The position numbers and the translations under genes were made by a program. The notes under the pieces were generated by a model. The model was not told where the DNA came from, made no database searches, and saw only the letters and a list, made by a program, of their open reading frames with translations. This document shows, piece after piece, positions 38,001-63,395 of a stretch of 64,000 nt of DNA. Source of the stretch: Magnolia sinica (lineage: Eukaryota; Streptophyta; Magnoliopsida; Magnoliales; Magnoliaceae); assembly GCF_029962835.1 (NCBI RefSeq), contig NC_080582.1:78240177-78304176 (forward strand), in the 5' to 3' direction. Numbering within the stretch: position 1 is the first letter of the stretch; every line of letters starts with the position of its first letter.

Positions 38001-41000
38001 TTATTTTAGAATCATAAGCAATCCATGATGGTCCCTAACAAATAGATGTATCAGATTGTCAATTAAACCTATTTTGTGTAAATGATCTTGACCATCAATG
38101 CTAAAGTCCATTGATCAAACGGTTAATATTTCTCCAATCTGATTTCCATTTGTATGGTATCTCATGATATGTGCCTTGGGCCTAATGAACAGTCTGGATC
38201 GATGAATTGAAATGTCTTAAGTGCTCCAATGCAACTACCAGCACTTATATCTTATAGTGCTAAGCAATATCGGAGCAACTCATATCAACCTGTTGATTTA
38301 TTTTTTTTGGTTTTTCATGTTGTCTATGATGTGGCTCACCTGATAGTTGGATCGACTTAATTTTTGAATATTCCATTACCGTGGAAGTATTAACTTCCTA
38401 GGGACCAAATAAATTTTGTGGGCCCCATTTTCAGAATGTTATAATGCAAGCTATTGTTGCGGGCCCCACTGTGTTGTTTTAATAACTTCCACTCGGACCA
38501 TCTTGTGAACCATTTCTCGTTTGGTAGTGGGTCAAAAAATCAGGTCAGTTCATAACTCAGGTGGGCCACACCAGCAGGAAAAGTAGAGAGGAGACACTGA
38601 CCCTTGATTTTCGATAAGGTCCCACCGTCTTGAGATTTCACTGTTTTAATCTTTTCTTTTATCTTTGCAGACATCATCACAATGGAAGATGGGAAGCTCG
38701 AATTGGAAGAGTATTCGGCAACAAATACCTCTACCTTGGAACTTATGGTACACTATCTTTCCCTCTCTCTTATCATCATCGCATGTGACATTCACGTACG
38801 GCTATCTGGACCATCCTAACCCTCCAATTAGTGGCTCTATATAACATCATCTTCTAACCAGCCATTGGACGGTGATGGATGCGACGAAAACACTGGGCCA
38901 TAGCTCCAGCGCTCGCTTACCAAAATATGACTATCAACTACACAAATGAAAACTAAGTCATTTTAGTTGAGACGTACCGTGAAAGCCATTCAACTCGGAC
39001 GCATACTGACAGGTTCTGTGGGGCCCACCATGATGTATGTGTTGTGTCTACACCGTCCATTCATTTTTATAGAACATTTTAAGGCATGAGACAAAGAATA
39101 AGTTAGATCCAAATCTGGAGTGGACCCCACCACAGAAAACAGTGGGGAGAGGGACCTCCACCGTTGAAACCTTCCTAAGGTCCACTATGATGTTTATCTG
39201 AGACCCACCTGTTTATAAATTAAGACACAAATGAAAGAATGGAAAAAAAATAAATTTCAGCTTGATCTTTATCTGAGATCTAACCTATTTATAAGTTAAG
39301 ACACATGAAAGAAAGGAGAAAAACAAATTTCAGCTTGATCGAAAACTTTTGCGACCCTAGGAAATTATTAATGGTGGGCGTAACTCTCTCTATTGTTTTC
39401 TGTGGTGAGGTTCCCTCGAGCTTTGTATTTGACTCATACTTTGTATCATTCACTAAAATGATATCTGATAAGTTCAAAAACTTGGTGACGTCACTTCAAT
39501 AGCCAGTCTGGCTGCTCAACCTGTCGCTATCTAATCCGCGTCCATTCAACTCATTTCACCCGAACCGATTTTCTAAGCTATTCACAGTGTGACACGTGTC
39601 AGAATATCACAGTGCCGGTGCCAACCAGTTTGGCTAGTGGTTGGTGCAACGAGGACCCGGCCATGATGTATGTGTTTTATCTACGCCGTCCATCCATTTT
39701 AAAAGATAATTTTAGGGCTTTATCCGAAAAATGAGGTATGTCTAAATATCAGGTGGACCACACCATAGGAAAACAGTTTTGATTGAACCTCCACCGTTAA
39801 AAACCTCCTGGGCCCACTGTAATGGTTATTTGACAACTACTAATCTTTTGATTAGGTCATACAGACTTGGATGAAGGGAAAAAATATATATCAGCTTGAT
39901 TCAAAAATATTATGGCCCCCCAAGAAGTTTTTAATGGTGAGCGTTCAATCAACACTGTGCGGTCCACTTGAGATTTCAATCAACCTCATTTTTGGGATCG
40001 TACCATAAAATGATCTGGAAGAATGTGTGGACGGCAGGGATGAAACACTTACATCCTGGTGGGGCCCACAGAGAACCGACCAATAGCCATTGGCTAGTGG
40101 CAGGGTGCGTAGCCGATCCGTTTCCAGATGACTGACCACTTCGTGATGACAGTTTTATGCTGAAATAAATTAGCAAGTAACAAGTAGTGGACAACCTAAC
40201 TCTTACCTACATTAGATGCGCATGACCATTAAGTCCAATCAATGGTCACGTCTTGTGGGGCCCACAGCCCTAAAATTGCACCGATCATCTGTTTCTGACC
40301 GTCCAATCAATTGCCCAAATGGTTTCACAAAGTGGGTCACGGGGCCCACCAAACGCCCACGGATCCAACGGTTTATATCATGCAGTCCACGTGATCATCA
40401 CAATGGTGGGGCCCACCTTATGAAACACTTAGATGTCCCACACACTTTCCAGGAGGTGCATGTCGGAGCATTGACATTTCAGTCAATCGCGACAAAAAAC
40501 AAAGGGAATCCATCAATTCAGTAGTTGGGGGGAGTACCAAACTCAACGGTTTTTTAAAATCTACAATAATATTTCCAACCCTCCACCGAATTTCTCACCC
40601 CATTCAATTGACTTCCGAACTCTACGGTCGCGATCAGCGTGGGAGCCTTTTCCATTTCGTCGAGTATGGACAACATAATCCATCTGCCCCTGTCAGAAAC
40701 AAAGTACCATACGAGCAGTGTGGGCCCCACCTATGATGTCTATTTAATATCCACTTTAGCTCAGTGGGGTCCACCTAGTGACTGGGTGGATGGCATATAT
40801 ACAACACGGTGGACCCCACATTCCCTCCAGTGTGGCCACCTGAGTTATGGACCAAGTTGGATTTGAAATCTTCCCCTAACATGTGGGGTTTAGGGGTGTA
40901 CGACAGAGCTCGACTCTGCTCGGCTTGGCTTGGCTACTAGTTGACCCTAAGTTGAACTTGGATCGGCTCAATTCAGTTCAGTTAGCAGCTGGGGCTAGTT

Positions 41001-42927
41001 CGAACTGAATTAGCTTGTGCAGCATTTTCATAAACACATGAATTACACCTTTAAAATTTCATTATATGTAAACAACAATAGTGATTTTACAAATATGTTG
41101 TCAAAGACTTTCTAAGCAGCATAAAAATTAAGAAAAAAATAGCATTTGTTTCGTATACATACCTTTCCTGCCACCTGCCACACTTGGTTGAGTAATTTCA
41201 TCAAATATTTAGTGAGTAACATCAATATCAAAGTAACCGTGTCATTGAACTGGTTTGATCCGAGTCGAGTCTAGCTGGGGTGCTCAAATTTATTTTTGAG
41301 CTCAAAAAATCAGCTTGACTCGACTCGAACTCAGCTTCAAACCAAGTTGAGCAAGCTAACCGAGCTAACTCTGTTCATGTATACCCCTAACGAGGGTGCA
41401 TAAATGGTTGGATGCCATGCAAATGTTATAGTGAGCCCCACATATCTCCGATGTAGTCATTTCATTAATGGGCAATTTAGATTATTGATTTCAATAATAA
41501 TATAAAGGAAAAGTGTAATATTTAATATTTTATTATTATCTAATAATATTTTAAATTTAAATTTAAATAATAATGTGTATGAATATAATGATCTAACACT
41601 TATGATTGACAAACCAAACCTAAATATTTACTGTTACAGCTGACTTTATAATAATTGCACTTTTATTATGCATACACCAGGCCCATCTATGTGTTTTATA
41701 GGAATGCACATGTAAATTAACCCTGACGCATGCATGGAACCCAATCAAACTGTCTGGATAGTGGGCCCCACTTTAGATGGGCCATTAATGGACAATCGCA
41801 ATGATCTGCGGTTCTAGCCGGAATGTTAGTGAAAGTCTAATGTGGGATGTGAAAATTAGCCAACGGTCACAATTCAACGAACAAGTGTCCATGACTTGGA
41901 GGTTAGAATCTGATTGTCCACTGATTAAATGGTCAGGATTGTCCAATCACTTTCCGTTTTCAGGACATGCCCCTGTACACAATGGGCCACTAGATGGACG
42001 GTCTTGATTACATGCAAGGGAAAATGCTAAACACACAGACAGGAGCATGCGCATTGTTGTATATATGATACTCGGGCGGTGAATGGTGCTTATATGCAGG
42101 CACTCGGAGATGGTACACGTGGCATACATAAACTCAAATCATTCGTTGCATGTTGTTGAAATAAGACCAACGGATGATTTTCATCTTTCACGGTCCAATA
42201 AATGTCTACCAATCCGTTAGTCAGATAATCAAATAAGCTCCATTTTTTGTTCACGATACATCTATATTGGGTACCGTAATTTGGACGGTTTGATTTGATT
42301 ATTTGTAAGCAATTTATTAGTACTTTCTAAGTGCCTGCGTATCATCCATCACAGTCTGCCAGAGTATCAAAGTTTCTCTTTAAATTTACGAAAATAACCT
42401 CAACGTTTGGTTTTATTTCCACAGCCACCCAGGAAGAAGCAGCTACCGCGTACGACATGGCCGCGATCGAGTACCGTGGACTTAACGCCGTTACGAACTT
42501 CGATCTCAGCCGTTACATCAAATGGCTACGTCCCAACCCCCAAAACCCTAACCCTAACGCTAGCTCCGACCCCGCAAACCCTAACCCTAGCCCCAGCGCC
42601 GACCTAGGTCTGGGGTTCCTCCGCCAACGCCAAGCCGGCGCCGCCGACGCGGCGCCCCCGCCACGCCCGGCCGGTGGCGCTGCGGCTTCATCGGCGCTGG
42701 GGCTCCTGCTGCAGTCATCCAAGTTCAAGGAGATGCTGGAGATGACGTCGGCCGCAGACTGCCCGTCGACACCGCCGGAATCTGACAACCCGCGGCGCTG
42801 CAGCTTCCCGGAAGACATACAGACCTACTTCGAGTGCCAGTACAACGGGGAAGGGGATGACGTCATCTTCGGCGATCTGAACTCCTTCGCACCGCCGATG
42901 TTCGAGTGCGAGCTGGAGGTGGAGTGA
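35006..42927 (+). CDS. ADAP: Double-AP2 transcription factor, ADAP/WRINKLED3-like
   Basis: Eight exons join in frame: 35006-35184, 35553-35635, 35768-35776, 36030-36118, 36615-36688, 37681-37731, 38671-38747 and 42425-42927 (1,065 nt, 354 residues). Residues 5-34 are Gln/Asn/Thr-rich, followed by a basic [11 protein letters not shown] stretch that may act in nuclear import. AP2 domain 1 spans about 54-120 ([39 protein letters not shown]). A conserved linker ([18 protein letters not shown]) leads to AP2 domain 2 at about 156-214 ([34 protein letters not shown]). The C-terminus keeps the subfamily motifs [15 protein letters not shown] and [11 protein letters not shown]. Known for the family: DNA-binding regulators; ADAP (At1g16060) is linked to ABA responses, and WRI3/WRI4 to fatty-acid genes for cutin. 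Intron 7 (3.7 kb) is swollen by transposons. Exon 8 is GC-rich. Confidence 0.95.
35768..35776 (+). CDS. ADAP: 9-nt micro-exon (exon 3) of the AP2 gene
   Basis: TCTATTTAG is bounded by AG (35766-35767) and GT (35777-35778). With a G from exon 2 and GT from exon 4 it encodes V-Y-L-G, giving the GRQVYLGAY run expected inside AP2 domain 1. A 9-nt VYL exon is known in WRI1-type genes, so this is a conserved trait. Confidence 0.92.
   Translation, partial: SI
38997..39543. mobile_element. Mutator-like foldback MITE with perfect 9-bp target duplication
   Basis: Starts GGACGCATACTGACAGG and ends with the inverted form CCTGTCGCTATCTAATCCGCG followed by TCC. ATTCAACTC occurs immediately left (38988-38996) and right (39544-39552). 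The two halves are inverted copies of each other (GGGCCCACCATGATGTATG and ACCGTCCATTCATTTT on the left). An internal duplication of about 75 bp lies at 39,195-39,340. It is in AP2 intron 7 and encodes no protein. Confidence 0.85.
39634..40125. mobile_element. Foldback element, subfamily with GGCTAGTGG ends
   Basis: Inverted halves carry CATGATGTATGTG...CCGTCCATCC on the left and GTGTGGACGGCAGGGATG...GTGGGGCCCACAG on the right. Ends contain GGCTAGTGGTTGG and CCATTGGCTAGTGGCAGG. A similar right end occurs at 20,360-20,405. Exact boundaries and target duplication are not clear. Confidence 0.6.
40889..41400. mobile_element. MITE-like element with TTAGGGGTGTAC ends
   Basis: The left end TTAGGGGTGTAC and the right end GTATACCCCTAA are inverted. 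The interior near both ends is rich in GAGCTCGACTC/GAGTCGAG words, a common type of plant repeat. It lies in AP2 intron 7. Confidence 0.6.
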
Positions 42928-45900
42928 AAAAGATCGGCGATTATTTGAGCGGTGTGAATACGAGGGAAGCGACGAGAAGGGGAGATTCTTTTTGGACGGT
43001 TGTGATCGGTCTGATGTAGATAGACTATAAAGATTCATCATTATTCTAATTTATTTTCAAATAACGGACACGTGGCGGTTTAAGGGTTTAAGATGGTGGG
43101 TTTTTTTTTTTTTTTTTTTTTTTAAAAATTATTGGAATTTTCATAATAGAAGAAATATCGCAATCGTTATTTTTATTTTTATTCTTTTTTCATAATGTGG
43201 TATGGACAGGGATGTGATTATAGTGGATGTTACCGTACACTCAGTAAATCTGGACCATTCAAATGGTGGGTCCCACAGCGAATTGCCTCTGGTGAAAAAA
43301 TGGAAATCAGATTGAATAAACTCTATGGTTTTTCTTGCGTGGTCCCCCAGACACTGCAAGGTTCGCCAGATGGACGTTCTGGATTTACTAAAGAAAATGG
43401 CATCCAAGCAGCATTTGAAGATAAATGAGTTTTTGTTTTAACTGATTTCAGGATTTCTGTTTTACCTGTTTGTACTGAAGAAATGATTTTTGGACCATCT
43501 TGAAAGTAACTTAACAGCGACCCAAACCTTCAGCATCAACGCTTATGCGGATTAGATACTGACAGGTTGAGTAGCGAGACCTGCTACTGAAGTGACGTCA
43601 CCAAGTTATGTGGGCCCCACTATGATGTATTTGTTATATCCAAACCGTCCATCCATTTAAAGAGATCATTTTAGGGCATGAGACAAAGAATGAGGCAGAT
43701 CAAAAGCTTGAGTAGACCCTCCACAGAAAAGAGTGAGTAGAGTGATGCCTACCGTTGAAACCTTCCTAAGGCCTGCCATGATGTTTATTTGAGATTCAAC
43801 CTGTTAATAAGTTAACATAGACATGAAAGATGGGAAAACACAAATATCAACTTGATTTAAAACTTTTGTAGCCATTAGAAGTCTTTAACAGTGGTTGTTG
43901 CTCTCCCCACTGTTTTCTATGGTGGTGTCCACTCCAGCTTTGGATCGGACTCATTCTTTGGCTCATATCCTAAAATGATCTCTGCAAATGGATGGACGGT
44001 GTGGATACAAAACATACATAATGGTGGGGCTTCTAAAACTTGGTGATGTAACTTCACCAGGGAGTCTGAATACTCAACCTATCAGTAGCTAATCGACCTC
44101 AAAAAAAATATCGTTTTCATCCAAACATAGGCTTACACATGGTTTGGAAACAGTGTCTCATCTGTAAAAGCATGTTTGGATCAAATGTAAATTAAAAACA
44201 TGCAAGGGAAAGCAAAAACAGCAGGATGGGTAAACTGACATTAATGCTAGGTGAAGCAGGATATAGATTGGGTATACTTGGCAGATTTCACTGGCTCTAA
44301 TAGGTCTTTATTAGAGATGGACCTACGCAAAGTATATTACAAAAATATTTGGAAACAACCCATCTCTATCAAAGTACTCCGCTTGTCTCCATCTTTGACA
44401 TAAGCCTGCGAGACCACCAAATCCCAAGCCGATTGGGTACTACCCCACCGTGACCTAGCTAGAGATGAATGATATGTCGGGAGCTTTTAAGGGCTCACTG
44501 TAATGCATGCATTTTATCCAATCTATCCGTTTGTTTTCACAGCTAGTTTTTGGGCATGATCCCAAAAAGGAGGTGAATTGAAGGCCCAAGTCTAAACTTT
44601 TCTAGGCCTCGCAATCATGTTTATTTGCCATCCAACCTGCTCCTACGCCCACATAGACTTGGATGAAAGGAAAACACAAATAGCAGCTTGATCCAAAACT
44701 TTTACGGCTCCACTGTTTCTTATGGTGTGGTCCAGTTGAGCTTTCAATCAGCCTTTTTCTTGGGCTCATGACATAGAATGAGCTTTCAAAATGGATGGAC
44801 AACTTAGATAAAATAATTGCATCACAATAGGCCTCACAAAACGCTTAAAAGGACCATCCATCTCTAGCTAGTTATTGGTGGGGGTAGTACTTAATTTATC
44901 ATAAGAGAAACAAATTCTTGGCATTTATTTGTTTTGATGAGGAAATTTTTTTTAAATTTTTTTAAATTATTATTTTGCATTTGCAATTGTTTAGATTCAA
45001 ATCCTACAATAGGATTTTTTTAAAAAATATTAAAAATTAAAAAAACTTTTTAAAGTCTTTTTATTTAAAACGACACATCAATGGTAACTTCTTTTTCCCA
45101 ATTTGGTTTTTTGAAGCAAAAAATAAGTTACAGTCTTGTTGGGTAGGACAAAGTAAATACAAATACTTCATTATAATATTTAGTGTTTTTTAAACAATAC
45201 TAATTTGTTATCGACGCATCACATTTCTCAATCTGCAACCCGTCCAAACAAATCATAGCATTATCGCCCACTCAAGTGTCCAATGGACTAAATTTTATTT
45301 GAAATAGGTTTTTGCGGGGCCAAGTTTAACAAACGGTTTGGATGTTACAACACTTGTTCAAAATTCAGGGCACATCGACTTCTCTAGAATACAAACGTAC
45401 TCTCTTATGGGACATGAAGCATTTGCCAAACGGACCAAACGAAGGAAAATACAACTTGGTTATTTCCAAATCATTAAGAATATTGATTGCAATTAAATTT
45501 GATTGAGCATCCAAATGTAACCTTTTACAGGACACGAAGCATTTACCAAACAGACCAAACCGGTGCTCTTTCATACCTAGCTCTCAGTAAATCTCTCTGT
45601 TTGAGATGGCCCATCTGAAAGGCCGAGCTCATAGAGCTTCCATGGTATTTTAAATAATCAATCCACCGCAGACAGAATATTGTGATCACTTGTCGTCATC
45701 GAGCGGGCCATCGAGATATGAATAGCATATTGACCTTGTATGGTAGGGCTCTTCAGCAGGGTCTAGTTTCATGGCTTAGTGGTAGATCGATTGCGTTTTA
45801 ATATCGAGGTCTTGGGTTACATGACCATACAAATGGCTCAGGTCAGCTTGGCCACTTTCACAATATCACTACTACACATGCTTACCACAGAAAGATAAAC

Positions 45901-47687
45901 CACCATTGAATCAAAGTCGGCCAATGCCACCGATTTAAACCGGAAACAAGGACTAGAGCCACTTGACCTTGAACTTCATAATAGTGATTTTCACAGGTAT
46001 GTAGCAATTTCAATTGCATTTTCTTATGCATTTTGATTTGAAAACAAACCACATTTTAGAGATCCAAAATGCTAACTGTTGGATCATTAATCCAACAGTT
46101 TTTGTCCAAGGGATCAATGTGCCCTTTCAGTAAAGTTGGTGATGCCCAATCCCATATCACCATCTGTCCAAGATGGGGTCTCAACGGTCCAAAACACCCC
46201 ATCTTATTAAAGAAGGGTTAAAATGGTTTTGTGCAGCCATTAATCCCAACATACCATCTGAAGGCAGTGCAATGAACATGTGTCATATAACATTATAAAA
46301 TTATTTAAATTTGCATTGTAAGATTGATATTTGATCCCTACATTAACAAAAAATACAAAGAAGAAAAGCCCAAAATTTAAAAAAAAAAACAAAAAAAAAA
46401 CAGAAGGTGATTTTTAAGAAATTACAAAGACGTGATAGTCTAAGGAAACAAAACGAGTAGAGCTATGGAACACACATGGTGGACCCCATCCTGATAATTA
46501 CCCTTGCGAGTAGCCGTTGCAAGTATAACATGTGGATGAGGTTTGGTAGACTGGACCATGGCTGGGACTAAACCTTTGGATCTTATCATTCAATGATCCA
46601 AGCCCTTTATACAATCGGACGGATTGGATGTTTGGATATTCTGTCACTTTTCCATTGAATATGGGACGGTCTTCGTAAATTTTGAATAATTGAAGAGTTT
46701 AAATATTTCAATATGGAAGTGTTTTTGGGTATCCTCATCCATCGTAAGGCCCACCATATGAACGGTTTGGATCATTAAAAAGGACCCCATCAAACCGCTA
46801 GTCTGAATGTAAACTATTGCAATAGATCAGGTGCATTCTAGCAAAACTTCCAACAGGTAGATGATCTATACACCCAATGCCTGTGATCAATACACTTTTT
46901 TAAATTGCTAACACCAAAAAAAGAAAAAATAAAATAAAAAATGGTGTATTTATCAAAGGATAGGGTCCACAGATCACTTTCTCCAAAGTAATCTCTTCAG
47001 TAGAGAAGTATACACAGGATCATCCCACATGGCAATCTAGATCTTTCATCTGGCTGCCCATCATGGATCGTTCATCAACCAATCCCATCAGACTGCTGGA
47101 TGGTTAAGATACAGGTATAGCAAATGGGCATAATACTGCCCAATGGTGGAATTTTTATTTTAGCATTATCCATCCAAGTGGGCCCCACCTGACAAACAGT
47201 TCTAATCTCTGAAAGGAGTCAACAAAGATGCCACATCCTGTCTTTCCTAATGCAAAGACAAAGGGTTGGATTGAACTGAAAATGGTGGGTCCTTAAGAGG
47301 CAACAGATGTTGTGGTACACTTCATAAGCTTCTAACATTGAATAAAAGTGCAATCTAATCTAACCTTTTGCATTCAGAGGCTGAACAACAAGGTGCTAAG
47401 TCCACACATGTGTGTAAGGCAGATCATGTACACACCACACATGTGCCAGCATGGCACATTAGTGCAAGATCCAATCCAATCATCAGAGGGATAAGACTAT
47501 GTTGACATTGTTACCCAAGAATCACGATGGCGGTGGGCCACTGTTCAAAAACCAAATGTACAGCTGAGAAAGACTTTGGCCCTTCGAACTATCTCCAACA
47601 TCATGGCCCACCTGCTGAATGGACAGCTTGGATATCGCACCTATGATGGTGTGTGCACAAATGCGAGCTTATCAAAGCTTGACAAGA
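42928..47687. other. Region between two convergent genes: 3' sequences and repeats
   Basis: The AP2 gene ends at 42,927 (+) and the Tubby-like gene at 47,688 (-). Two foldback-family copies lie at 43,544-44,102 and about 44,463-44,870. A direct pair GAAGCATTTRCCAAACRGACC (45,417 and 45,536) flanks a MITE fragment. A degenerate tRNA-like segment (TTAGTGGTAGATCGATTGCG) is at 45,777. No further gene is recognisable. Confidence 0.55.
43544..44102. mobile_element. Mutator-like foldback MITE, degenerate ends
   Basis: The left arm ATACTGACAGGTTGAGTAGC, followed by GAAGTGACGTCACCAAG, is mirrored at the right by CTTGGTGATGTAACTTCACC and CTCAACCTATCAGTAGCTAA. Same family as the copies at 38,997 and 61,920, but the outer GGACGC hexamers are mutated and no target duplication can be claimed. 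Confidence 0.7.
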
Positions 47688-50600: not shown

Positions 50601-53600
50601 TTCAAATTATACTTGTTTTTTCTAGTTTAAGCTTCACTTGGCTTTCATTTTATTTTTTAAAATTGGTGGGGGCTTTAAGAATCATTTAGGAAAAACCTTT
50701 CAAAAAAAAAAAAAAAACAAAAAAAACAAAACAAAAAAAAAGGAATCATTTGGAAAAGGTAAATTATTTCATTTTGTTCTTTATCAAAGATAAAATGATA
50801 TATATTCTCTTCAACATTAAATTGTCGAGTTTTTCTTTTTCTTTTTAATGATTTCTTACTTCTTAAGTGGTTGAAACACCGATCTGATGTATGACTTATC
50901 TGGAATGTTTTTATGGATGGTAACAATCGTTTTGACTTACATGTATCATGGAATGATGGTTAAAAATTGAAATATCTTTTTCCGTCGGTCTACAGAATCT
51001 AATGTCACTTTTACAATGTTATTATGCATTCAAGAAATGTAACAAGAACATAAATTATTAAAGGATCCTTATATGTTTTAAAGGAATTTTTCTTAAAAGA
51101 CAAGAAGAATGAAATATAAGAATCCTTTAACATTATCATGACATGGTATTACTTGGTGCATATTGATGGTTAAAAGGATGATGGCTAGTTTTTATTTTTA
51201 TTTTTTTTAATATGTTTCATATTTGTAAGAAAATCATTTAAAAAAAAAAAAAAACTTGTGATTTATTATACGGTTTGCGATTCAATACGATTCAATCCCT
51301 ATTACAATTTGCAATACGATAACAATTTTGACAACATTGACCGTACAATACAAGTATAAGCAGAATGAGATCATAAAGGAATACTTAAAATGATCTTAAG
51401 GCAAGATATCAAAGACTAGCTCTTAAAATCTTTGGCAAAAAAAAAAAAAAAAACAGACTAGCTCTTATGGTCATATTAATTGTGACCTCCTTGAATTTTT
51501 ATTTCTTTTAAATGGTAAGAGACCTGTAAGGCTATAACTTGTTGAGTCTTAAAGCAGCAACAAAGCATACTCGCACACAGGTAGTGATACAAGTACAACC
51601 ATACCATATAAAATAAAATAAAAAACAAGACAAAGATAAATAGTATTTAGCAAATAATAATAATAATAATACCAACTCAAATATCTCTTGTTCTCTTTTA
51701 CTCAACCACCATCTATTGACCTACATCTACCACAAATGAGTTGTGTAGTCTGTTGATGTCCAACTTACAGATTAATTTTAGTTAAATCCCATTATCAGAA
51801 CTTAGGGTCAACAGGAACTCCTGCAATCATCAACACCTTTCCACTAGTTCATTAACAATCCATCCCACGAACTTTAGGATGGACCTATGTGTAAAAGGAG
51901 GCAAGAAAGGACACCACCCAAAGTCATTTAAAAACTAAAGAGTGGCCTATTTTTGTGACGGTAGAATCCTGCCAAAACATTTAAAATTAAAGGATTTTAA
52001 AGTGACATTGAAACAAGCCCTTTTTTTTTTCAAAAAATATGGGGATTTATAGTTCCCTTTTTGGACAATAAGCAGCACTCTTACAGTAATTTTCCACATT
52101 TGAGATGGGCATTGTTCAAAAAATACAGAAGGCCCATTGGGCAATGTGTCCAATGAGTCTTCTTGTCAAACCAATGCTAGATTGGCATTAAGCTTGGTTC
52201 TTTTCCAACAAGACTAAAACAAGCATTTTGATAAATGAGAATGGCATCAATGGGAATTTTTTTTTTTTTTTGGAAAAGTATGGGCTCAAACCCTCAACCT
52301 CATTGTTGAAACACAATCTGTCTACCACTGAGCTACGGGGTCAAACCTGTAGCTCAGTGGTAGACGTATTGCGTTTCAACACTGAGGTCAAGGGTTCAAG
52401 CCCATACTTCCTTAAAAAAAAAAAAAGGAGGAAGCTTAACCAGCTCTTATTGATGGAGCTTAATTAGCTCATTATGTCCACAACATAACATGTATGTAAG
52501 CAAGCTTCGGAAACATAACCATTGATATAGGCTATTGCTTTAGTCTCTCTCTAACAGTAGCTTTAGTAGCATCCAGTCCTCTTCAACAATGTAGACATCG
52601 CCACCAAGTACCAATACCATAACCATCAAACCCAACATTCTGAATCTCATCGGCCTCTCAACAACTAAGAGTGTGTGGCACATGCACATCCCCCTAGCAT
52701 TAATATCCCTTCATAGGCACTATAATATTTTCATCCAGGGCTTGTGGTCCCTCTACTTGAAATCATCTTAGGAGCTATTTGGATGCTATCCTTAAATTAT
52801 TTAATTTCAAATCTGTTGCTAAGAATGACACCATTAAGAAAACAGGATACTCATACTTTCTTTTTTTTTTTTTTCAAAAAATGAGTTTGGGAGGCATCAT
52901 TTCTTCATCCCCTTCCACACCAATTACGAGTGTGCAGGATCATAACCATCGTGTCATGCAATGAGAAGAAAGTATCATGCCCCTATTATCAAACCCATCC
53001 TATATTTAGGTAGGTCACATTATGCAAGAGAATCATAACCATTCGCAATTTAGCCAACAGTCACTGATAGCCAGAGTAGCGCATGGGCTAAAAATAGTTA
53101 AATCAAGTTTTTAACACCCAGATAGGCATTTTTAGTAGTGTCATAAACCGCATGAATCTTAAACTGTAGATGCACTCAACTCAAACCATCTAAGAGGATA
53201 ACTTGAGAGTATACAGTACTTTTTTAAAATCCATCATTCAATCAAGTTTTCCAAATCCCATATGGAGCCTTGCATTCTTGTGCATTGGTTTTCATATCCC
53301 CTAACCCAATCAAATAAAATTTCATAAAGCTCGTTCACCGATTGTAGTGATAACTCGTAGTTTTAATGTGAAAACCAATCCATTATGTTCTTCTATCATC
53401 ATGAACAACATGTTCAGATGAGTGGAATACATAAGAAAATACTTTTTCCTTGGATTTGACACTTTTTGTTGTTCGAGTAGCAAAGAAAAAGGTCAATTCT
53501 ACAAAGCAATCATTAGCTTTATCCCTATTTACGATTCTGTGGCACAAGAATCAAGGTAACCGTTGTTTAATAAATATGAGATTTCCGCTTGCTATCCAAA

Positions 53601-56600
53601 CAAAACTCCTAAAATGGAATCCATTTTTCAATAATGCTCAAGAAAATAATCATTGGATAATTAGCGCGTGTTTGGATTTCACTATTCCATAGAAAGGAAA
53701 TGGAAAACTTATTACCAAATCATTATTTCCACTGAGCGTTATTGAAAAATGAATTCAATTTTAAGGTACCTATTTGTATAACAAGTGAAATTCTCAGCTT
53801 TCACCTAGTTTCTTGTACCAAAGAATCATAACTATGGAAAAGTCTAATGATTGTTTTGTGACAACTATCCTTGTTCTTTCCTATCCAGACGTCCTAAATT
53901 GTCACATCAAAAGAAACCTTATTCCTTTACCAGTGATGCCTATGGAATTCCTTGTATGCAAATATGCCCTTGCTACTACAAATTTTTCCCTTGGATTCCA
54001 TGTATCAAAACATGGGCATCAACCCCAAGGTACCTAGTATTGATGGCAATCCTAACTACATAAATTGCCACTAGCAAACGAAGCATTTGGAAGTTGGTAA
54101 ATTCCAAACGAGTGAAATGTCTATTCCTTCAAATTGCCAATGCACTATGTTATTGGTCTGCAAGAACTTGGCTAAATGCCAATTTGAGTGCTGGTTTGAT
54201 AGAGGAATAGTCACTGGGCACATTCCACAATGCACCTTGCACATTTCTCAAACATTGCCCATCTTGAATATCATGTGGGCATCATTGAAATTATGTAGAA
54301 ATTCCATTTTAGATCTTTTCCACACACAACCTAAGGAGCTCTTTGGATGACAACTATCTATCATTTTGAGATCTGCGCACACAACTATCAAAAACTTGCT
54401 TTGTATTTTCCCAAAAAAAAAGTGTTTGAGAAGCTATAATTTTTCACCAACCCCTGAACCTGAAAACCAATGACACATGTGCCAAACATAAATTGTCAAT
54501 GAGGTGCACTGTCACATCAACATACCATGTCCCACAAATTAAGCCCATCCATTATTTAGGTTGGCACACTAGTGCTACAAATCTCGACCATTTGGCGACC
54601 TCACCAACAAACACTGATAACTCTATCATGCACATCTGTCTAAGATGAATTAGAATGATTTTCTAATGTCATCTGAACAAACCCTAAGGGTGTGCCTAGA
54701 TATATGCAAAAAACCAGGACTACATCCAAATAGGATTTATTCAGTTTTTTTGCCTTCTCCAAGACTCCATCCAAATTCAATATCTAACGCCTACACCGGA
54801 CATTATTTTTGCACAGAAAAGCATACCGCCCACCCCACCTCCAAGCACCCTAGCATACCACAAAGCATAAGAAACTACCTAATGTTGCGTTCCATAGAAC
54901 TTGAATCCATCTAAAAGTGACTTGGTCAATGTAGTCATTTGTACCAAGACTTTGCCAATTCATGGACACTTCTAGAATCTTGAGAAAATCATTAGTTCTC
55001 CCATTTTCACAAACCAATTGAGCAATGCCGTATCATGGAATGGAGAGAACTTTTAGATGCCACCAAAAAAAAAAAAAGAAGAAGAAGAAGAAGAGACTTT
55101 TACCTAGTGTGAAAGGTAGAAATCAAACCAACTTAATCCAACTCCTGAAACTGGACTTATTAAACATAACCCAATAAGTTATGGCCTAAATCAATCTAAA
55201 ACTCTTCGAAAACAACATTTGAAACCAATGATGCTATGGGCCTTATTTGTTTCACCAATTACATGGGTAATGTAAAGGAAGTGTGCCATCATTATGATTT
55301 TACCACTGCCAAACCAAACATGGGAATCATCCTTCAAATTCAAATGTATTCAGGAGACAAGTAAAAGAAGTTTGTAATCATTGCACCTTTTCATGGCATT
55401 AATGTGGAAATCTCAAATCCAAACAGTAACATCAGTGTATTTTGGAGATAATTTAACATTAAAGTAACGTAAAAATGTCATCATTACGATTTTACTGCCG
55501 ATAAACCAAACATGGTAATCGGCGGTCAAATGCAAATGTTGTCAAGAGACAGGTAATTTGTAATCATTGTACATTTCCATTTACTGTGGTAATTGGTGAA
55601 ACAAACAAGACCTAAGTACCCTTTTTAATAAAAACAAGGAATACCATAGAGCTTTCAGTGTTCTAGAGATCTTACATTAGTGTAAAGAGAATAGAGAGAG
55701 GCCCCACCAAGCTCTTCTGATGCTTCCTTCACTATAATACAAGTACACCTCCCAATGTCCAATGGAAGAGGCCTATACAACAACGACCTGAAAAACCAAC
55801 ACCAGAACTGTTACCTAAACATCCAATTCTAAAAGCATAAACAGAACTACAGACCAATCTACATTCATTTATGCATAATGTGGTTGTCAGTTCTCTTCTG
55901 CAACAGACAAACACTATCAAGCCACATGTGCACGTGAGATTGGGGATGTTAATCAGGTGGGCCACACAGTGCCTTGTGCCCTGAGCCAAAAAATGGTGAA
56001 CACATGTACTAGAAATGGACAGTTGAAAAAGGAGAAATGGTCAAAATTCAATGCACAGGATGACCCAATCGATAAATGAAATAGCATCAGTTTTGAGCTA
56101 TTGCACATTCACACTAAAGCCAACACGATGAATCGACCAGATCATGCACGCATTCCATGTCAGCACAGTTTAGTATCTACAGATGGGAGCCTGCAAGTAG
56201 CATTCCACCATGACATGTAATTGCTTGTCTATCTACATGTTACAAAAAGTTTCTCATCAGCCTATTTTCTCGTCCATCGTCACCATACATCCAGCATGCC
56301 AATAACAATTCAGACTGTCCATCCAGAGGGCCCGGTGGCCTAAAGGACAATTCCAATCATCCATTTCATGGCCCACCGACAGAAAGCAAAGAGCAGCATG
56401 TGGCCCAATCAAATCCCACCACATCCCAACACCACTGAGCTAAGAGGTGTTGGGGTCACCAGGCAATCCACATCCAAAGAGAAGACACAAAAAATGGCTG
56501 TGGGGTCACAAAAAGATGACCTGAAGAGATTAATTCACTGAGCCATTTTCACCATACATCAAACATCCCCACAAAATTCAGACTGTCCATCCAGTGGGCC

Positions 56601-57397
56601 CCACAGTGGATGCGGGAATAGCTCACAAATCTGCACCCAACAGACAATCCCAACCATCCATCTGGTGGCCCACAACAGACAGTGAAGACCCAAAAAGCTA
56701 TGACCGTTGAGCCCACAAGAAGATGCCCTTCGGAGATGGCACAATGGACCAGGGTCCCATCTGGTGGGCCCCACCATCAACGAGGCATAGCCCACAAGTA
56801 TGCATATAATGGGAAATCCTGCCCCTCCATTTGCTGGCACACAAATGGACAGTTAAAAACCCACAAGAAAAAGACCATGGGCCCCACAAGCTGGACGGCG
56901 GAGCTGGCACAACGGACCAGACCATCCAAATACAAACCCCACCTATTAGGAAGTGTAGACCAAGAAGAGGCGGGTGCCGCATCCGAATCCGAATAGTCCC
57001 ACACATTCGACGGGTTGGAATTCTCATCCTTGAAAACGACCGGACCCGACCGGAACGCTGATTCAGGCTCGTTCATCTGCATACAGAGCTGGAGAGAAGA
57101 AGGCTTCAACAGAGGCCTGTTTTGGAGCGGGGTTGAAGAGGGTGTTTTCCTCTCGGAAAGAAACGGCTTCGTCTTCGACGGCAGCGAAGAAGCGCTTTTG
57201 GGTACGGCATTCTCCTTGCCGCCGCAGACGACGGCGGCATGGTTGCGGCACATGTGGAGGCCGACCACAGCGGGGCTTCCGTTGCGGTCGCCATCGCTGA
57301 AGCTTCTGTTGTGCTTAAACTCATTGAGAGGATTCAGATAGAGGGAATTGTATGAAGATTGGCGAGATACTGAGGAGGATTTCTTGAATCCCGGCAT
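47688..57397 (-). CDS. TLP8: Tubby-like protein without F-box, TLP8-like
   Basis: Nine minus-strand exons join in frame: 57397-56943, 55787-55676, 50312-50136, 49418-49360, 49222-49126, 49041-48952, 48801-48706, 47948-47881 and 47763-47688 (1,230 nt, 409 residues, stop TAA). All introns are GT-AG. Residues 1-150 form a Ser-rich head ending WDYSDSDAAPASSWSTLPNR. The Tubby domain covers about 155-409: RPLPLDIGRCTC, FIIAQNAKGISC, MGTITANLMGSRYSIWDQ (231-248), LTGSFRSMRAWIPKHQSM, a variant of Tubby signature 1 ending TSVKNFQ (352-358) and a variant of signature 2, AFCICLASIDSKLCC (393-407). There is no F-box, as in Arabidopsis TLP8 (At1g16070). Tubby domains bind phosphoinositides at membranes and some act in the nucleus; the role of TLP8 is little known. 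Introns 1, 2 and 7 hold repeats; intron 2 is 5.4 kb. Confidence 0.94.
48025..48148 (-). mobile_element. tRNA-derived SINE-like insertion in TLP8 intron 7
   Basis: On the minus strand, a B-box-like GGGATCGAGTGCCC is followed by a GTGTGAGTGTGTGGG stretch and an A-rich tail (plus-strand T tract, 48,026-48,058). The same layout is seen in the SINE at 63,109-63,265. No target duplication was found. Confidence 0.5.
49241..49346. repeat. 53-bp tandem duplication in TLP8 intron 4
   Basis: Copies at 49241-49293 and 49294-49346 both begin ACCAGTGAGCAA and contain AAGGAAAGATT and AAGTTGTGAAAG. The second copy ends about 14 nt before the exon 4 donor. Confidence 0.75.
52270..52412. repeat. Inverted pair of tRNA-like sequences (hairpin) in TLP8 intron 2
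   Basis: The right half reads TGTAGCTCAGTGGTAGACG and then GGTTCAAGCCCATAC, which fit the A box and B box of tRNA promoters. The left half is its reverse complement (GTATGGGCTCAAACCCT, CTACCACTGAGCTACGGG). Poly-T and poly-A tracts lie outside (52,256-52,271 and 52,414-52,426). No anticodon arm of a functional tRNA is evident, so I read it as two head-to-head SINE or tRNA-pseudogene ends. Confidence 0.6.
53440..54030. mobile_element. Two Tourist-like MITE copies related to 464-1350
   Basis: 53,440-53,660 matches the left MITE in forward sense (ATTTCCGCTTGCTATCCAAA, AAAATAATCATTGG). 53,680-54,020 matches it in reverse sense (CTAAATTGTCACATCAAAAG) and ends CATGTATCAAAACATGGGC, an inverted MITE terminus. 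The forward copy lacks the LINE found in the copy near 730. Confidence 0.6.
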
Positions 57398-57402
57398 GCT
57401 TG

Positions 57403-57405
<3 letters not shown>

Positions 57406-57447
<42 letters not shown>
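57406..57447 (-). promoter_or_regulatory. (CT)n tract in the TLP8 5' leader
   Basis: A 42-nt (AG)n run on the plus strand is (CT)n in the transcript sense and ends 8 nt before the ATG at 57,397. A TATA-like CTTTAAAATC lies just upstream (57,446-57,456). Confidence 0.6.
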
Positions 57448-57451
<4 letters not shown>

Positions 57452-57479
57452 AAAGAGGGAGCATGAGTTTTGAATTATT

Positions 57480-58781
57480 TTGAATAGGACTGAAACTCGG
57501 ATTCGGGTTAACCTGAACCCGATTAATCCAACCCGAGTTCGAAACGGGTTGGGACCTGGAAGTCAACCCGATTCGAATTTGAGTTCGGCTGTCGGGCACG
57601 TGAGGTGGAAGCAGAGGCTCTGCGGGCCCACTATGAAATCCGAGTCCCAAGGTTTGAGGTCAAGGTTGTTTCGGGAATATGGTTTGGGGGCTATACCATA
57701 CTCAGGTTAAGTATGACAGTTTACATGCAGGCACTAATAAATTATTAATCAGGACAAACTAAAAAATGAGGTAAACTTAAAACTCAATTGAGTCACATGA
57801 TTTTGAAATAGAGAGATTGAAAACTCACCGTTAAAATGTTAGTGGGCCACAAAAGTTTGGGACCACGCTAATATCATTGAGACTTTATAGAGTAAGAAAA
57901 TATAAATAAATTATAATAAATTTAAAATTTAATTGATCAATAAAATAAACGACTTTGCAATCCTTTAAATAAGGATACCAAACAATGAGAGAGAAATTAG
58001 AAGTAAAATATAATTAAAACTCCATAAAATTTGTAATTTACTAAAAATAGTAGCCGGGTTGTAAGCTAAAATAGCTTGTCGTATGCTAAAATCATATATG
58101 GTACGTTGAATAACTCATTCAAGTTTGCAAGATATGTTCATTTTAAGGTTATAATAGTTTTGATGACTTCTACCTCTGGTTGGGCCTTTTCTAGTCCATC
58201 TGGGACATGAAAGTATCCGCAACCCACTTTACACCAAGTGGCATACTTCAATTTTGGATTTGACTATTTTTTTAACTTGTGTCTGAACATTAGTTGACAA
58301 AACAGATGGACAAGTTGAATTTCTCACAAACATCATGGCAACCCACCTAGCTTTTGACTACTATAAGTTCTTGTGAGCAGCGTTGCAGATAATTCATGTC
58401 CAGATTCCAAAAAAACTCAATCAAGCTAAGCAGTATCCAATCAATGTGCTTTGTGTGGGCTTTGGAAGCGGTGAGGCTGGACTTTACATGGAGCAGATCG
58501 GCGACACCTTAGTGGGTGTTGCCATGTGAGGTCCACCTTAGATGAATTTGATGTATATTCATGACCTTCATCCGCTTTTTCAGTTATACCAAAACTTAAG
58601 TAGATCCAGCTTAATACAGCTAATAAACCCTACATATCTTTTTACAGTAGGCTCTCGAAAGTTTTTAAGGATGAATGTTTACTCACCACTGTTTCCTAAG
58701 GTGTGGTCCACTTGAGATATGGCTCTACTCCATTTTTTGGACTACATCTTACATTGGGCTGAAAAAATAGATGGACGGTGT

Positions 58782-58865
<84 letters not shown>

Positions 58866-59150
58866 TTGGAACATCAACATCGTGCATTTGATGGGTTCCT
58901 TTTAAATTATGGGATGTCCTAAAAATCAGCCGTATATGGAACTCAGGTGGGCCATACCATCTAAAACTGTGTGAAGACATGCCTAATACATATAAAAGCA
59001 CTTGGTGGGGCCCATCTGAAATTTGTATGCATTTGAAACTTGGTCTGAACCCTCATCCAAGTGGGACACACATAATGGATGGGCTGGATTTTTGAACCAC
59101 ATCTCGGTGGGCCCAATAAATGATTATGAATGTTTTAATGGAGGGTAACC
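57480..59150. other. Upstream of TLP8: repeats, no gene seen
   Basis: An ACCCGA/TCGGGTT-rich stretch (57,500-57,560) is followed by AT-rich DNA and, from 58,480, a foldback-family element broken by a microsatellite at 58,784-58,863. Short frames only. Confidence 0.5.
58784..58863. repeat. (TA)n(TG)n compound microsatellite
   Basis: About 16 TA repeats pass directly into about 24 TG repeats. It follows GATGGACGGTGTGGA, i.e. it sits at the arm position where other family members continue TACAAAACATACAT. Confidence 0.95.
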
Positions 59151-59154
59151 CCTT

Positions 59155-59868
59155 CCAACTTTTGCCAACGAAGTAATGTCACCGAGTTCCGTAGGCTCCA
59201 CCATGATATATGTGTTGTAACCATACCATCCATCCATTTGAATAGATTATTTTAGGGCATAAGGTAGAGAATTAGGTAGAGATTCAAAGCTAGAATAAAC
59301 CCATCAACGAAACGATGAGGAGAGTGACGCCCATCATTGAAACCGTCCTAGGTCAACCATAATGTTTATTTGAGATCCAACCTGTTCGTAAGTCAACACA
59401 GACATGATCTTAGGGATAACACAAACATCAGCTTAATCGAAAAACTTGCTAAGCCCCTAAAAGTATTTAATGGTGGACGTTACTTTTCCTAGTGTTTTGT
59501 TTGAAAGGGTCCACTCAAGCTACGGATGATGGTCCGTTGCAGTATCTCTATTTCTAACCGTCTATTTGCAGTTCGTAGATTGAAAGGCTGGGATTGCCCT
59601 ACCTAGATTATTTTTACATAATTGGACCCAAAAGACCAATGTTCTCACTAGACCATGGGTCCCACTGAACAAACTAAAAACTCAAGTATTAGATCTTGCT
59701 TGATTGGCCCACATGACATTTTCCTAGTGTTTTGTTTGAAAGGGTCCACTCACGCTACGGATCTGACTCCTTAAATGATATCTCCAGACGGAAGAACCGG
59801 TTAAGCCCACAGAACCCGGTGACGTCACTTCAGTAGTGAGTCTCCCTGCTCAACCTGTCAGTGGTAGG
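59155..59868. mobile_element. Mutator-like foldback MITE with an internal insertion
   Basis: The left arm (GTAATGTCACCGAGTT, CACCATGATATATGTG) and the right arm (GGTGACGTCACTTCAGTAG, CTCAACCTGTCAGTGG) match the family ends. The middle has 191 bp of foreign sequence (59,528-59,718) flanked by a 44-bp direct duplication (59,484-59,527 and 59,719-59,762). Confidence 0.65.
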
Positions 59869-60239
59869 TTTGATGGGTCGAACCCTTATGAAGTTGAGTA
59901 CTTGTACTATTCTAACAGCAGCATGTGAACCAATGAAATGGTTTGGATAGTTTTGTGAGGTCAGGCTCACGAATCTGCTCTGGTGGGGCTTACCTCTCTG
60001 AAAGCAGCAACTGATCCAATCAAAGGCCGCATTCGATATCTGATAACAAGGCTATTTGGCTTATTATTAGACAAGTCGGAGGTACGGTCTATTACTCCTC
60101 CTGCCAGACTGCAGAGATTATTAATTCCAAGGGCCCCAATTGCTGGGAATATTGGGAGCCACCAGCACATCCGATCTATGGACCCAGGTGGACCACCTTT
60201 GTTCGTTTAAGCACGTTTTGCCTCTCTCGTCAAACACGA

Positions 60240-60705
60240 TCGCCTACGGGTAACTCAATACGCCGTTGAGTAAACTCAATGGAGCCCACTACGATGTATG
60301 TGTCCTTATCCATGCCGTCCATCTGTTTTTCAAAATCATTTCAGGGTATGAGCCCAAAATTGAAGTATATCCAAAGCTCAAGTGGACCACACCACATGGA
60401 ACATTAGGAATAATGATCTCAGCCAATGAAGCCTTCCTAGGGCCCACGGTTATGTTTATTTGAATCTATTTATAAACATTTACATCAGCTTGATCCAAAA
60501 GTTCTGTGGCCCACAAGAAGTGAAGTTTTCAACGATGGCAGTCAATTCCCACTGTTTCCTGTGGTGTGGTCCATTGGAGCTTTGGATATCCTTCAATTTT
60601 GGGGTCGTGAGGTAAAATGAGCTGGAAAAATGGATGGACGGCGTGGATAAGATAGACATGGTGGGCTTCACAGAGTTTACTGAGTAAGCAATCAGCGACC
60701 ATTAG
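60240..60705. mobile_element. Foldback element with GAGTAAACTC ends
   Basis: Left GTTGAGTAAACTCAATGG plus GCCCACTACGATGTATGTG pairs with right CCATGTCTATCTTATCCACG (reverse complement) and GCTTACTCAGTAAACTCTG (reverse complement). The inner arms share CGTCCATC and AAGCTCAAGTGGACCACACC. No target duplication is evident. Confidence 0.6.
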
Positions 60706-61910
60706 GGCCCACATTCCGATTGGTCTGATCAGAACATTCCATGTCCTGTACTCTAGGCTCTAATGGTCATAGCATGAAAAGTGCTCTATATGGATGATCG
60801 TGGCCGTTAATATCTGGAGATGTATTTAGAGGAATGAAAGTACTTTCTATGGCAAGCATTCAAATCCATAAATCAAAGGCTCAGATCAATGATGAAGTCT
60901 AATTATAGGCTGGCAGCTTATCTATTCTAATAAATAGAATATGGACGCTCAAGTAAGTGGACCATCTCCGCATGTGGGCCCCAGTAGTAGGTGGCGACAT
61001 TCGCTCGATCCTGCGTCGCGATTGGACTGAACAGCGCTCCCGTAACTCGCGCAGGTATGTGCGAGGGTACGTACCTCCCCGAACAGTCCTTCGTGGAAAA
61101 TAATCATAAGATCCACCCCGTCCATCGGGACTGCAGCCTAATTTTCACCATGGATCCCATAAATCAGAACGTTAGATAACTCGGGTAGACCAGACTACAG
61201 GGAAATACAGCTTTAGGTGTATGTGGGGCTCACGATGGCATTTATGTTCCATCCCATCCATTCATTTGATACGTTTTATCCAGATGAAATGAATGCACCT
61301 AATTCACACTATTTATAAACTAAGGTGGGTCACCCCGTCCATAATTTACTCTTGTTTGGCCTTGATCCCGAAAATCAGGACGATTCCACACTAAGCCCGG
61401 CCATCCATAAAAATATACCTAAAATCTCTAAAATTCACGTGATATGGCCCATCTGAATTTTGGAATACACATATTTTTGGGTGCTGGTAAGGCATGTCGG
61501 ATGAATAGATTGGATGGAATGGAAGGTAAACACGAAACTAGGCCCTATACAAAACTAATGGTGGGCATCCAATCACAAATATTTTTTCCCAGACTGTGGC
61601 CTAGATAATTTATCGATGGTTATGATTTTTTGTTTAGTTGGTAATCATGAGGCAACATAACTGATGGACGGAGTGGATCTCGTGAAAGTTACACCCACGT
61701 GGCTCAGGCTATCACCGCGGCTCTTTTCGTAAAAGGGCAGTCAAACGTCGAAACCTCTTTTTTAACGGTTGGTTTTGTCTGGGTTTCGGGGGAAGATATT
61801 TGAATTTGAATGGCTTCGGGAATCGTGTAACGGTAGCTTTCGAAACTCGCAGTGGGTCGCTTTTTTATTGATTGTTGTCGGGAAACGGCACGTAGTCCTC
61901 GGACGACCAA
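60706..61910. other. Intergenic, no gene seen
   Basis: Fragments of the GGGCCCAC family and unique-looking sequence. Only short frames without recognisable protein similarity. Confidence 0.5.
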
Positions 61911-61919
61911 GATGCAATC

Positions 61920-62448
61920 GGACGCAGTACAGCTACTGACAGGTTGAGTCGCGAGACTAGCTACTAAAGTGACGTCAACAAATTACGTAGGGCCCACCAT
62001 GATGTATGTGTTGTATCCACACCGTCCATCAATTTGGAGAGATCATTTTAAGGCATGATCCAAAGAATGAGTCAGATCCAAAGCTGGAGTGGATCCCACC
62101 ACAGAAAACAGCAGGCAGAGTGACGTCCACCGTTGAAACCTTCCTAAGGTCCACCATGATGTTTATTTGAGATCCAACCTGTTCATGTGTTAAAGCATAC
62201 ATGAAATAAGGAAAAACGCAAACATTAGCTTGATTGAAAACTTTCGAGCCGTTAGAAGTTTTTAACGGTGGGCGTCACTCTCCCCATTGTTTTATGTGGT
62301 GGGGTCTACTAGAGCTTTGGATCTGACTTGTTCTTTGGATCGTGCCCTAATATGATGTCCCCAAATGATGGACGGTGTGGATACAAAACATACATTATGC
62401 TGGCCCCACAGAACTTGATGACGTCACTTCAGTAGCCAATCCGCGTCC
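61920..62448. mobile_element. Mutator-like foldback MITE with near-perfect 9-bp target duplication
   Basis: Begins (G)GACGCAGTACAGCTACTGA and ends AGTAGCCAATCCGCGTCC. The flanks are GATGCAATC (61,911-61,919) and GACGCAATC (62,449-62,457). Both halves carry the GACGTCA motif next to the termini and the GATGTATGTG/CACCGTCCATC arms. At 529 bp it closely matches the 547-bp copy at 38,997. Confidence 0.8.
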
Positions 62449-62784
62449 GACGCAATCGTAGTTTGCCAGCTGGGCCACATTTAGTAGTCAGGCAGGTCCC
62501 ACGGTTGATAAGCCATAGTCGGTCATTTTGTGATCTTGTCTGCATTGGATTTATAAGATGGTTTATGAAACTGATACTTTTCTAATGGCTTTCTCACGGT
62601 GAGATCTACCTACTGGACGGCTGAGATCATCAGACCGTGTGGCCAAGCTAGTGCGCTACAGATTCACCTCGGTAGTATACGGACTACAGTACCGCGTCTC
62701 AATTTAATAGTCACACAGACAAGCGGACGCGGACTGGGACTGGACCGCGCCCCGTCTCTAGCTAGTAACAGACACGGTCTTTGA

Positions 62785-63395
62785 GGGGCCATCGTGATGT
62801 ATGGGTTCTATCCACACCGTTCATCTATTTTTCTATATCAATTTTAGGGTATCAGCCCAAAAATAGGCAGATCCAATAATAAAGTAGACCATACCACAGG
62901 AAGCAGTGGTCATAATGACACTCACTGTTGAAACCATCCTAGGGCCTACCATGATGGTTAATTTCCATCCAACCTGTTCATAAGGTCACATAGACCTGGA
63001 TGAAGGGTAACCATAAATATCAGCTTGATCCATAACTTCCGTGGCTCCCAATAAATTTTCAATGGCATGTGTTTAATGCCCACTGTGGTCCACTTGAATC
63101 TTGAATCTTCTTTTTTTTTTTATTTTTTTTTATTTTTAGGGGTAGCTTGTTAGTACACACCCACGTCAGTGTACACACTCCATGTTAGCCACCTCCGCTA
63201 CGGATCGATACCAAGACCTCAAGTATTGAAACGATGTAGCTCCACTCAGTCTGCCAGTTGAGGTCATCTTGAATCTATCGTATTTTTGGGCTTTGACCCG
63301 AAAATGATATGTAAAAATGAATGCACGGTGTGGATAAAACGCATACATCATAGTGGCCTAAGAGAGACGAGCAGGTCATCAGGTGGGCCCTTGTG
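62785..63395. mobile_element. Foldback element carrying a nested SINE
   Basis: The left arm (CATCGTGATGTATGGGTTC, CACACCGTTCATC) and right arm (GAATGCACGGTGTGGATAAAA, CATACATCATAGTGG) are inverted. The right half is split at 63,109-63,265 by a SINE with its own target duplication. Confidence 0.65.
63109..63265 (-). mobile_element. tRNA-derived SINE with exact 11-bp target duplication
   Basis: On the minus strand the element starts with a tRNA-like head (GGCAGACTGAGTGGAGC; B-box-like GGTATCGATCC), followed by a GTGTGTACACTGACGTGGG body and an A-rich tail. ATCTTGAATCT flanks it at 63,098-63,108 and 63,266-63,276, exactly matching. At about 157 bp it is a normal SINE size. Confidence 0.85.

Follow-up and report, generated by a model that had tools for sequence, protein, structure and literature searches.

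Mutator-type (MULE) MITEs of plants are short, non-coding elements that are bounded by terminal inverted repeats, reach high copy numbers and are flanked by 9-bp target duplications. The elements that we describe here, from the genome of Magnolia sinica, share all of these features. In the comparison, which is one of class features, they differ in that almost all of the element is arm sequence, that one arm core spans different outer termini and that the number of core sites, 131,714, is very large. In the accessible part of a survey of 207 genomes, the Mutator type accounts for 41.5% of MITEs (PMC12550479). As far as that part of the survey goes, the family is thus an expected kind of element. 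Tm1 of root-knot nematodes, in the part of its description available to us, resembles our elements in its foldback arms, 9-bp duplications and MITE-like members; it differs in its arms, in which units of 13-15 bp are repeated in tandem and the end motifs are asymmetric, and in that a transposase-bearing member is known (PMC3169594). We found no description of the present family in the open-licence literature. To judge from that literature, it is a new family of a known kind of element rather than a new kind.

We analyzed a window of 64 kb, the whole stretch presented here, in which the initial annotation had recognized two foldback elements, copies A and B, with common ends, similar sizes and 9-bp flanking duplications that were perfect for A and had one mismatch for B. 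All of this was borne out: GGACGC...GCGTCC bounds both copies, at 547 bp in A and 529 bp in B, and the flanks match at 9/9 positions in A (ATTCAACTC/ATTCAACTC) and at 8/9 in B (GATGCAATC/GACGCAATC). By simple arithmetic with equal base use, the chance of 9/9 flanks at preset ends is about 4e-6 and that of at least 8/9 about 1e-4. It had also been claimed that each copy is almost entirely self-inverted, which held for B but was overstated for A. Nearly all of copy B is a palindrome (31-526 against 526-31, 75% identical), and the z score of its RNA fold is -25.7, versus -7.7 for A. Copy A is self-inverted only in part. Its self-inverted BLAST match spans 108 bp, its left arm is without about 46 subterminal bases that B has, and it carries an 80-bp tandem duplication of its own (192-271 against 267-344).

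Copies elsewhere were sampled without regard to their flanks, as the 30 exact termini that come first along contig C1 (loci L041-L070, with L053 and L054 152 bp apart). A partner end was present 350-750 bp away in 19, one of these pairings (L056) being doubtful, and there was none within 750 bp for 11. In the 19 paired elements, the 9-bp flanks matched at 9/9 positions in four, 8/9 in three, 7/9 in two, 6/9 in two and fewer in eight. Some elements were repeated in an earlier flank tally (L070 three times), and it is the 19-pair set that gives the count. Real pairs thus reached at least 8/9 in 7/19 cases, versus 0/342 when flanks were swapped between elements; 3/342 swapped pairs reached 7/9. 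Exact flank repeats had a single length: four of the 19 pairs had one of 9 bp, and none had one of 5, 6, 7, 8, 10, 11 or 12 bp. A separate length-9 tally of 24 rows, in 17 of which G stands at either end, mixes shared insertions with internal repeats and was not used as a count. Among 100 exact termini listed, there are three pairs in which both ends are exact; two of these were read, and both had duplicated flanks (TGTGCCTTA, 9/9; GCTCCAGTC/GCTCGAGTC, 8/9). The initial annotation had held that the two cases in the window would be a coincidence if most copies elsewhere lacked 9-bp duplications or ended at other positions. Under half of the copies keep a clear duplication, yet those that do keep it at the same ends and with the same length, and the reading withstood this test. 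Copies with no clear duplication are probably decayed or truncated. Twelve exact-terminus loci that initially had no partner were read 700 bp inwards; all were truncated, altered or tandem family arms, and none was an obvious larger coding element.

It could be argued that the units are pieces of a single longer repeat, a satellite or a segmental duplication, and that their ends coincide by homology and not by transposition. This would fit the clustering of units in the window and the GA-rich tandem copies of the terminus in five loci (L051, L053, L054, L056 and L059). However, the two flank words of one copy agree, whereas those of different copies do not (0/342 swapped pairs at 8/9 or better), and we consider this explanation extremely improbable.

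Across 23 elements, the length was 460-614 bp (median, 549 bp) and the longest stop-to-stop frame 56-102 amino acids, so the elements are short and non-coding. A unit of about 550 bp comprises little beyond a pair of inverted arms, each about 245 bp long; as in foldback elements, the arms account for most of it. When 230-bp arms were compared, the mean arm-to-arm identity within elements was 0.81 (22 elements), and between elements it was 0.82 for arms of the same side and 0.80 for those of opposite sides (22 of the 23 elements, the 63,412-63,973 unit of the window being omitted and four elements from the best matches of A included). Because identity is about equal within and between elements, most divergence probably arose after insertion, and the master element would have been a nearly perfect palindrome. 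When whole elements were compared in pairs, identity averaged 0.82 and reached 0.91 at most, and this small sample is therefore without sign of a very recent burst.

Such arms raise the question of whether these are Foldback elements (FB/FARE/Tm1-like) with a transposase lineage of their own rather than ordinary MULE-derived MITEs. The inverted arms do form most of the element, and nematode Tm1 is, in the accessible part of its description, a Mutator/Foldback family with 9-bp duplications (PMC3169594). The aligned arm, however, is single-copy sequence and is not built from short tandem repeats, unlike the arms with 13-15-bp tandem repeats that the same part describes for Tm1 (PMC3169594). Repeated termini were seen in five C1 loci only, and these five loci were excluded from the arm alignment. 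We regard this alternative as unlikely. Two other assignments were rejected. For hAT MITEs, the expected 8-bp duplication was absent, with 0/19 exact 8-bp repeats at GGACGC ends; for PIF/Tourist or Tc1/Stowaway MITEs, the expected TA or TWA duplication was absent, as the GGACGC ends have perfect duplications of 9 bp in which neither word is constant. The common GGACGCGGATTAG termini, the 9-bp duplications at them with no other length from 5 to 12, and the thousands of dispersed termini indicate that the family very probably consists of non-autonomous, non-coding foldback MITEs of the Mutator (MULE) type.

The dispersal of the family was measured in the host assembly (1.84 Gb in 127 contigs, 19 of them large). 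The 24-bp terminus GGACGCGGATTAGCTACTGACAGG occurred at 6,505 sites with up to three mismatches (3,268 + 3,237; reversed control, 0) and at 388 sites exactly. The terminal inverted repeats are thus common to many dispersed copies. The proposal of the initial annotation, a non-autonomous MULE family that has spread through this genome, is supported by these 6,505 termini and by the 7/19 flank matches at 8/9 or better against 0/342. A sibling terminus, GGAAGCGGATTGCG, was found at 7,624 sites with up to three mismatches (control, 0), and the arm core GTGGGSCCCACCATGATGTATGTG, at the same tolerance, at 131,714 (65,720 + 65,994; control, 0). Judged by sequence, the core is common to families with different outer termini, which would together form a superfamily. 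The window holds 7 core sites versus 4.6 expected from the genome mean, and is thus about 1.5-fold rich. Scaled crudely from the 12.6% of this one window that is occupied, the superfamily perhaps makes up near 8% of the genome. In the five C1 loci with repeated termini, the MITE terminus recurs every 68-87 bp in GA-rich sequence, like a small satellite grown from an element end.

Other units in the window were located with an arm profile built from 24 of the 30 exact-terminus loci (the six seed arms of L051, L053, L054, L056, L059 and L060 were omitted). The profile gave 39 matches. Chained by eye, they form 15 two-armed units, with some arms left single, and total 8.0 kb, or 12.6% of the window (Table 1). 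Six further, more diverged copies had been proposed here; all six places proved homologous to the family arm, and one has a perfect 9-bp duplication (CTAATTTCA), making a third unit of this kind. For the other five, no duplication was found when ends were left free (flanks of at least 7/9 and inverted ends of at least 8/12, within 130 bp). Seven two-armed units, together with single arms, lie beyond the copies previously listed, at 16.8, 18.1, 19.9, 21.1-22.4 (two, nested), 26.2 and 39.65 kb. The free-end scan of the 15 units returned 9/9 flanks for copy A and for the 63,412-63,973 unit, each with a score of 17/21, and missed copy B, whose inverted ends are under the threshold. By itself the scan proves little, as 1/60 random spans scored 18; the duplication at 63,412-63,973 is also supported by its preset GGAAGCGGATTAG ends. 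A search for exact duplications with inverted ends of at least 10/14 recovered none of the true elements, and preset termini were therefore used.

Table 1. Foldback units and their flanking duplications in the window (window positions).
Feature	Position	Strand	Basis or remark
Copy A, foldback MITE, GGACGC...GCGTCC, 547 bp	38997..39543	+	lacks left subterminal region; 80 bp duplicated in tandem inside
Copy A, left 9-bp target duplication ATTCAACTC	38988..38996	.	flank comparison
Copy A, right 9-bp target duplication ATTCAACTC	39544..39552	.	flank comparison
Copy B, near-complete foldback MITE, 529 bp	61920..62448	+	two TGACGTCA sites, 61970 and 62419
Copy B, left 9-bp duplication GATGCAATC	61911..61919	.	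flank comparison
Copy B, right 9-bp duplication GACGCAATC	62449..62457	.	one mismatch versus left
Third unit with perfect 9-bp duplication CTAATTTCA	63412..63973	+	sibling termini GGAAGCGGATTAG/GAACATGGATTA
Left CTAATTTCA duplication of the 63,412-63,973 unit	63403..63411	.	
Right CTAATTTCA duplication of the 63,412-63,973 unit	63974..63982	.	
Family unit, degraded ends, 9-bp duplication not found	43547..44094	+	arm profile and free-end scan
Family unit, right arm interrupted at about 59,528-59,719	59161..59863	+	arm profile
Diverged sibling unit (core arms)	44491..44842	+	arm profile
Diverged sibling unit, arms adjoin TACTGAGTAA-type subterminus (by eye)	60276..60679	+	arm profile
Diverged sibling unit	62781..63356	+	arm profile
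Sibling unit directly adjoining copy A	39651..40072	+	arm profile
Core-only foldback unit	16803..17090	+	arm profile
Core foldback unit	18068..18483	+	arm profile
Core foldback unit	19910..20353	+	arm profile
Outer unit of nested pair (manual chaining)	21059..22373	+	arm profile
Inner unit nested in 21059-22373 (manual chaining)	21685..22121	+	arm profile
Core foldback unit	26187..26566	+	arm profile

By eye, a right-arm stretch of about 40 bp (TTTTCCTAGTGTTTTGTTTGAAAGGGTCCACTCA...) is doubled around an insert of about 190 bp at window positions of about 59,484-59,770. The surroundings of the units include an eIF3_p135 domain match at 2,946-3,329 (E 6e-14) and a 747-amino-acid open frame with no Pfam match at 8,454-10,697, which we presume are perhaps exons of one clustered-mitochondria-like gene. 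A 198-amino-acid open frame at 42,331-42,927, with no Pfam match at 0.001, looks by eye like the end of an AP2/AINTEGUMENTA-type protein, and the MITE at 43,547 starts about 600 bp downstream of it. On the minus strand, 24,297-25,007 matches part of a retrotransposon gag (PF03732) at an E value of 5e-5, which falls just short of the curated cut-off. No Rfam family reached its gathering score in the window.

The best matches of copy A elsewhere in the genome are mostly about 90% identical and stop short of the GGACGC ends, because the unit is there enclosed by CAGTGTTCGAAATATCG inverted ends. This enclosure was found in 8/8 loci of 9 kb (L071-L078). Six of the enclosed carriers measure 2.5-3.4 kb, and those of L074 and L075 are longer, at 7.4 and 6.4 kb. 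The 8-bp flanks match at 8/8 positions in L071, L073, L076 and L078, at 7/8 in L072 and L077 and at 6/8 in L074 and L075; a second, neighbouring carrier in L075 has flanks of 8/8. With its short terminal inverted repeats and 8-bp duplications, the carrier has the form of a non-autonomous hAT element, and we call it hAT-like from its end sequence and the duplication. Its longest stop-to-stop frame is 111-167 amino acids (seven copies), so the carrier is non-autonomous. The carrier in L071, at 2481-5004 of that locus (C6:61290000-61299000), belongs to a locus that contains three foldback units by eye. Perfect 9-bp duplications at the sibling terminus GGAAGCGGATTGCG occur in five loci, L071-L075. 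Since they show just two duplication words, CGAAAGCAG and GCGGATGGG, this suggests two insertions, each common to several hAT-like carriers.

We considered whether the units are themselves hAT-type MITEs, spread mainly by a hAT transposase, with 9-bp flanks that are accidental or mis-set 8-bp duplications. The carrier body lies beside the unit in 26 of the 39 best loci for A (A itself excluded), and with L017 and L027 from a wider fetch, 28 of the 39 best matches are in the hAT-like carrier with its 8-bp duplications. The likeness to non-autonomous hAT elements, CAGTG... ends and 8-bp duplications in the carrier of many copies, nevertheless belongs to the carrier only; free units are flanked by 9-bp duplications, and their ends are quite different from those of the carrier. 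At GGACGC ends, exact 8-bp repeats occurred in 0/19 pairs versus exact 9-bp repeats in 4/19. The 23-bp carrier terminus was found at 2,689 sites with up to two mismatches (control, 0), against 131,714 core arm sites with up to three, a comparison across different thresholds. Moreover, the carrier body was found in just 1 of the 30 exact-terminus loci, as a single short match (L056), and nowhere in the window, so carriage as cargo explains a small part only. The hAT explanation is therefore very improbable, and the near absence of the carrier from the exact-terminus loci and the window means that one branch, rather than the entire family, was multiplied by it. Mutator-type transposition thus remains our reading for the family at large.

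Under this Mutator-type reading, the 9-bp duplication and the ends point to a MURA-like transposase, supplied from another place in the genome, that would bind the terminal arms. Acting in trans, it would excise the element and insert it at a staggered cut, the fill-in of which would produce the 9-bp duplication. A near-perfect palindromic master would have given rise to the family, with copies decaying afterwards. The structure of the loci also shows a second route of amplification, in which units inside the hAT-like non-autonomous element were multiplied as its cargo, the carrier being flanked by 8-bp duplications. The assembly does contain MULE domains: 150 matches each were scored for PF10551 and PF03108, out of 1,104 and 804 first-look candidates. 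An autonomous MURA-bearing relative with the termini of the family was not found, two transposase loci (L081 and L122) having been read. In L081, whose 780-amino-acid frame is FAR1-like by eye, neither a GGACGCGGATTAG pair nor an exact 9-bp repeat with inverted ends was present. Core-arm matches lie on either side of this frame, five in all (16-1198 and 9087-9498); given the local density of arms, they are probably bystanders. The family terminus is also missing from L122, which lies 1.4 kb upstream of one PF03108 domain. Between the 100 listed exact termini and 71 transposase places on C1-C4, the nearest distance was 15.9 kb. On C5, fifteen matches to PF03108 (the MURA DNA-binding domain) lie within 0.51 Mb (C5:104,687,089-105,198,382), all on the plus strand and with stop-free frames of 634-843 amino acids, and may represent domesticated transposase genes arrayed in tandem.

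About 50 bp from its end, the family arm contains TGACGTCA, which we take to be a bZIP/TGA-type binding word. Genome-wide, there are 33,046 sites for this word versus 17,167 for the control palindrome TGTCGACA and 12,446 for the reversed word, and 3,682 sites lie in a strict arm context (control, 0). In the window, 5/6 sites are within units. For a direct estimate, we took the first 37 TGACGTCA sites of C1, located between 0.25 and 1.71 Mb, together with their surroundings, as 36 stretches. The arm profile matched 20/36 at E < 0.001, versus 0/720 with letter-shuffled flanks, and 6/20 of the arm-matching stretches fit the strict context. The 36 stretches are not independent, as some are two arms of one unit and L085-L088 look like one other repeat. 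Three estimates of the number of sites within the superfamily were about 12,000 (scaled strict context), about 18,000 (direct fraction) and about 16,000 (excess over the control palindrome). Set against 33,046 sites, they indicate that the superfamily may supply roughly a third to a half of the TGACGTCA sites of the genome, as extrapolated from one chromosome end. At L085-L088 (C1:0.32-0.39 Mb), four stretches have near-identical surroundings and no MITE-arm match, and are probably another repeat with the same word.

In arms unselected by terminus, TGACGTCA was intact in 23/54 and ranked 18th of 213 8-mers, above the arm median, in a ranking that omitted 30 seed arms of 190. We had considered that the word is an exceptionally conserved block; at this rank it is no outlier. 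The word is retained and is not clearly selected. According to the accessible part of a review (PMC12595863), transposable elements, MITEs above all, spread E2F motifs in Brassicaceae, and MITEs spread bZIP60 motifs in Prunus and TCP15/23 motifs in tomato; on these grounds the effect seen here is of a known type. The E2F amplification (Henaff 2014, via the same part of PMC12595863) is alike in that MITEs and other transposable elements hold a large share of one motif, about 85% there. It differs in that the word here is TGACGTCA, a putative bZIP/TGA-type site, and that its extrapolated share is about a third to a half.

Beyond the initial annotation, our analysis shows how large the superfamily is, identifies the sibling termini and the route as hAT-like cargo, and estimates the share of TGACGTCA sites. 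One MITE superfamily would fill a notable share of a large genome through two routes, its own Mutator-type transposition with 9-bp duplications and carriage as hAT-like cargo. These two routes could mislead automatic annotation, since the same sequence may be called either superfamily. The family is also a case in which the spread of a transcription-factor word by a transposon can be counted. It is conceivable, though we think it doubtful, that by placing about a third to a half of the perfect TGACGTCA sites, at most two per element, the superfamily rewired or buffered putative bZIP binding in this plant lineage, and that the octamer is also where a host factor or the transposase acts on the element.
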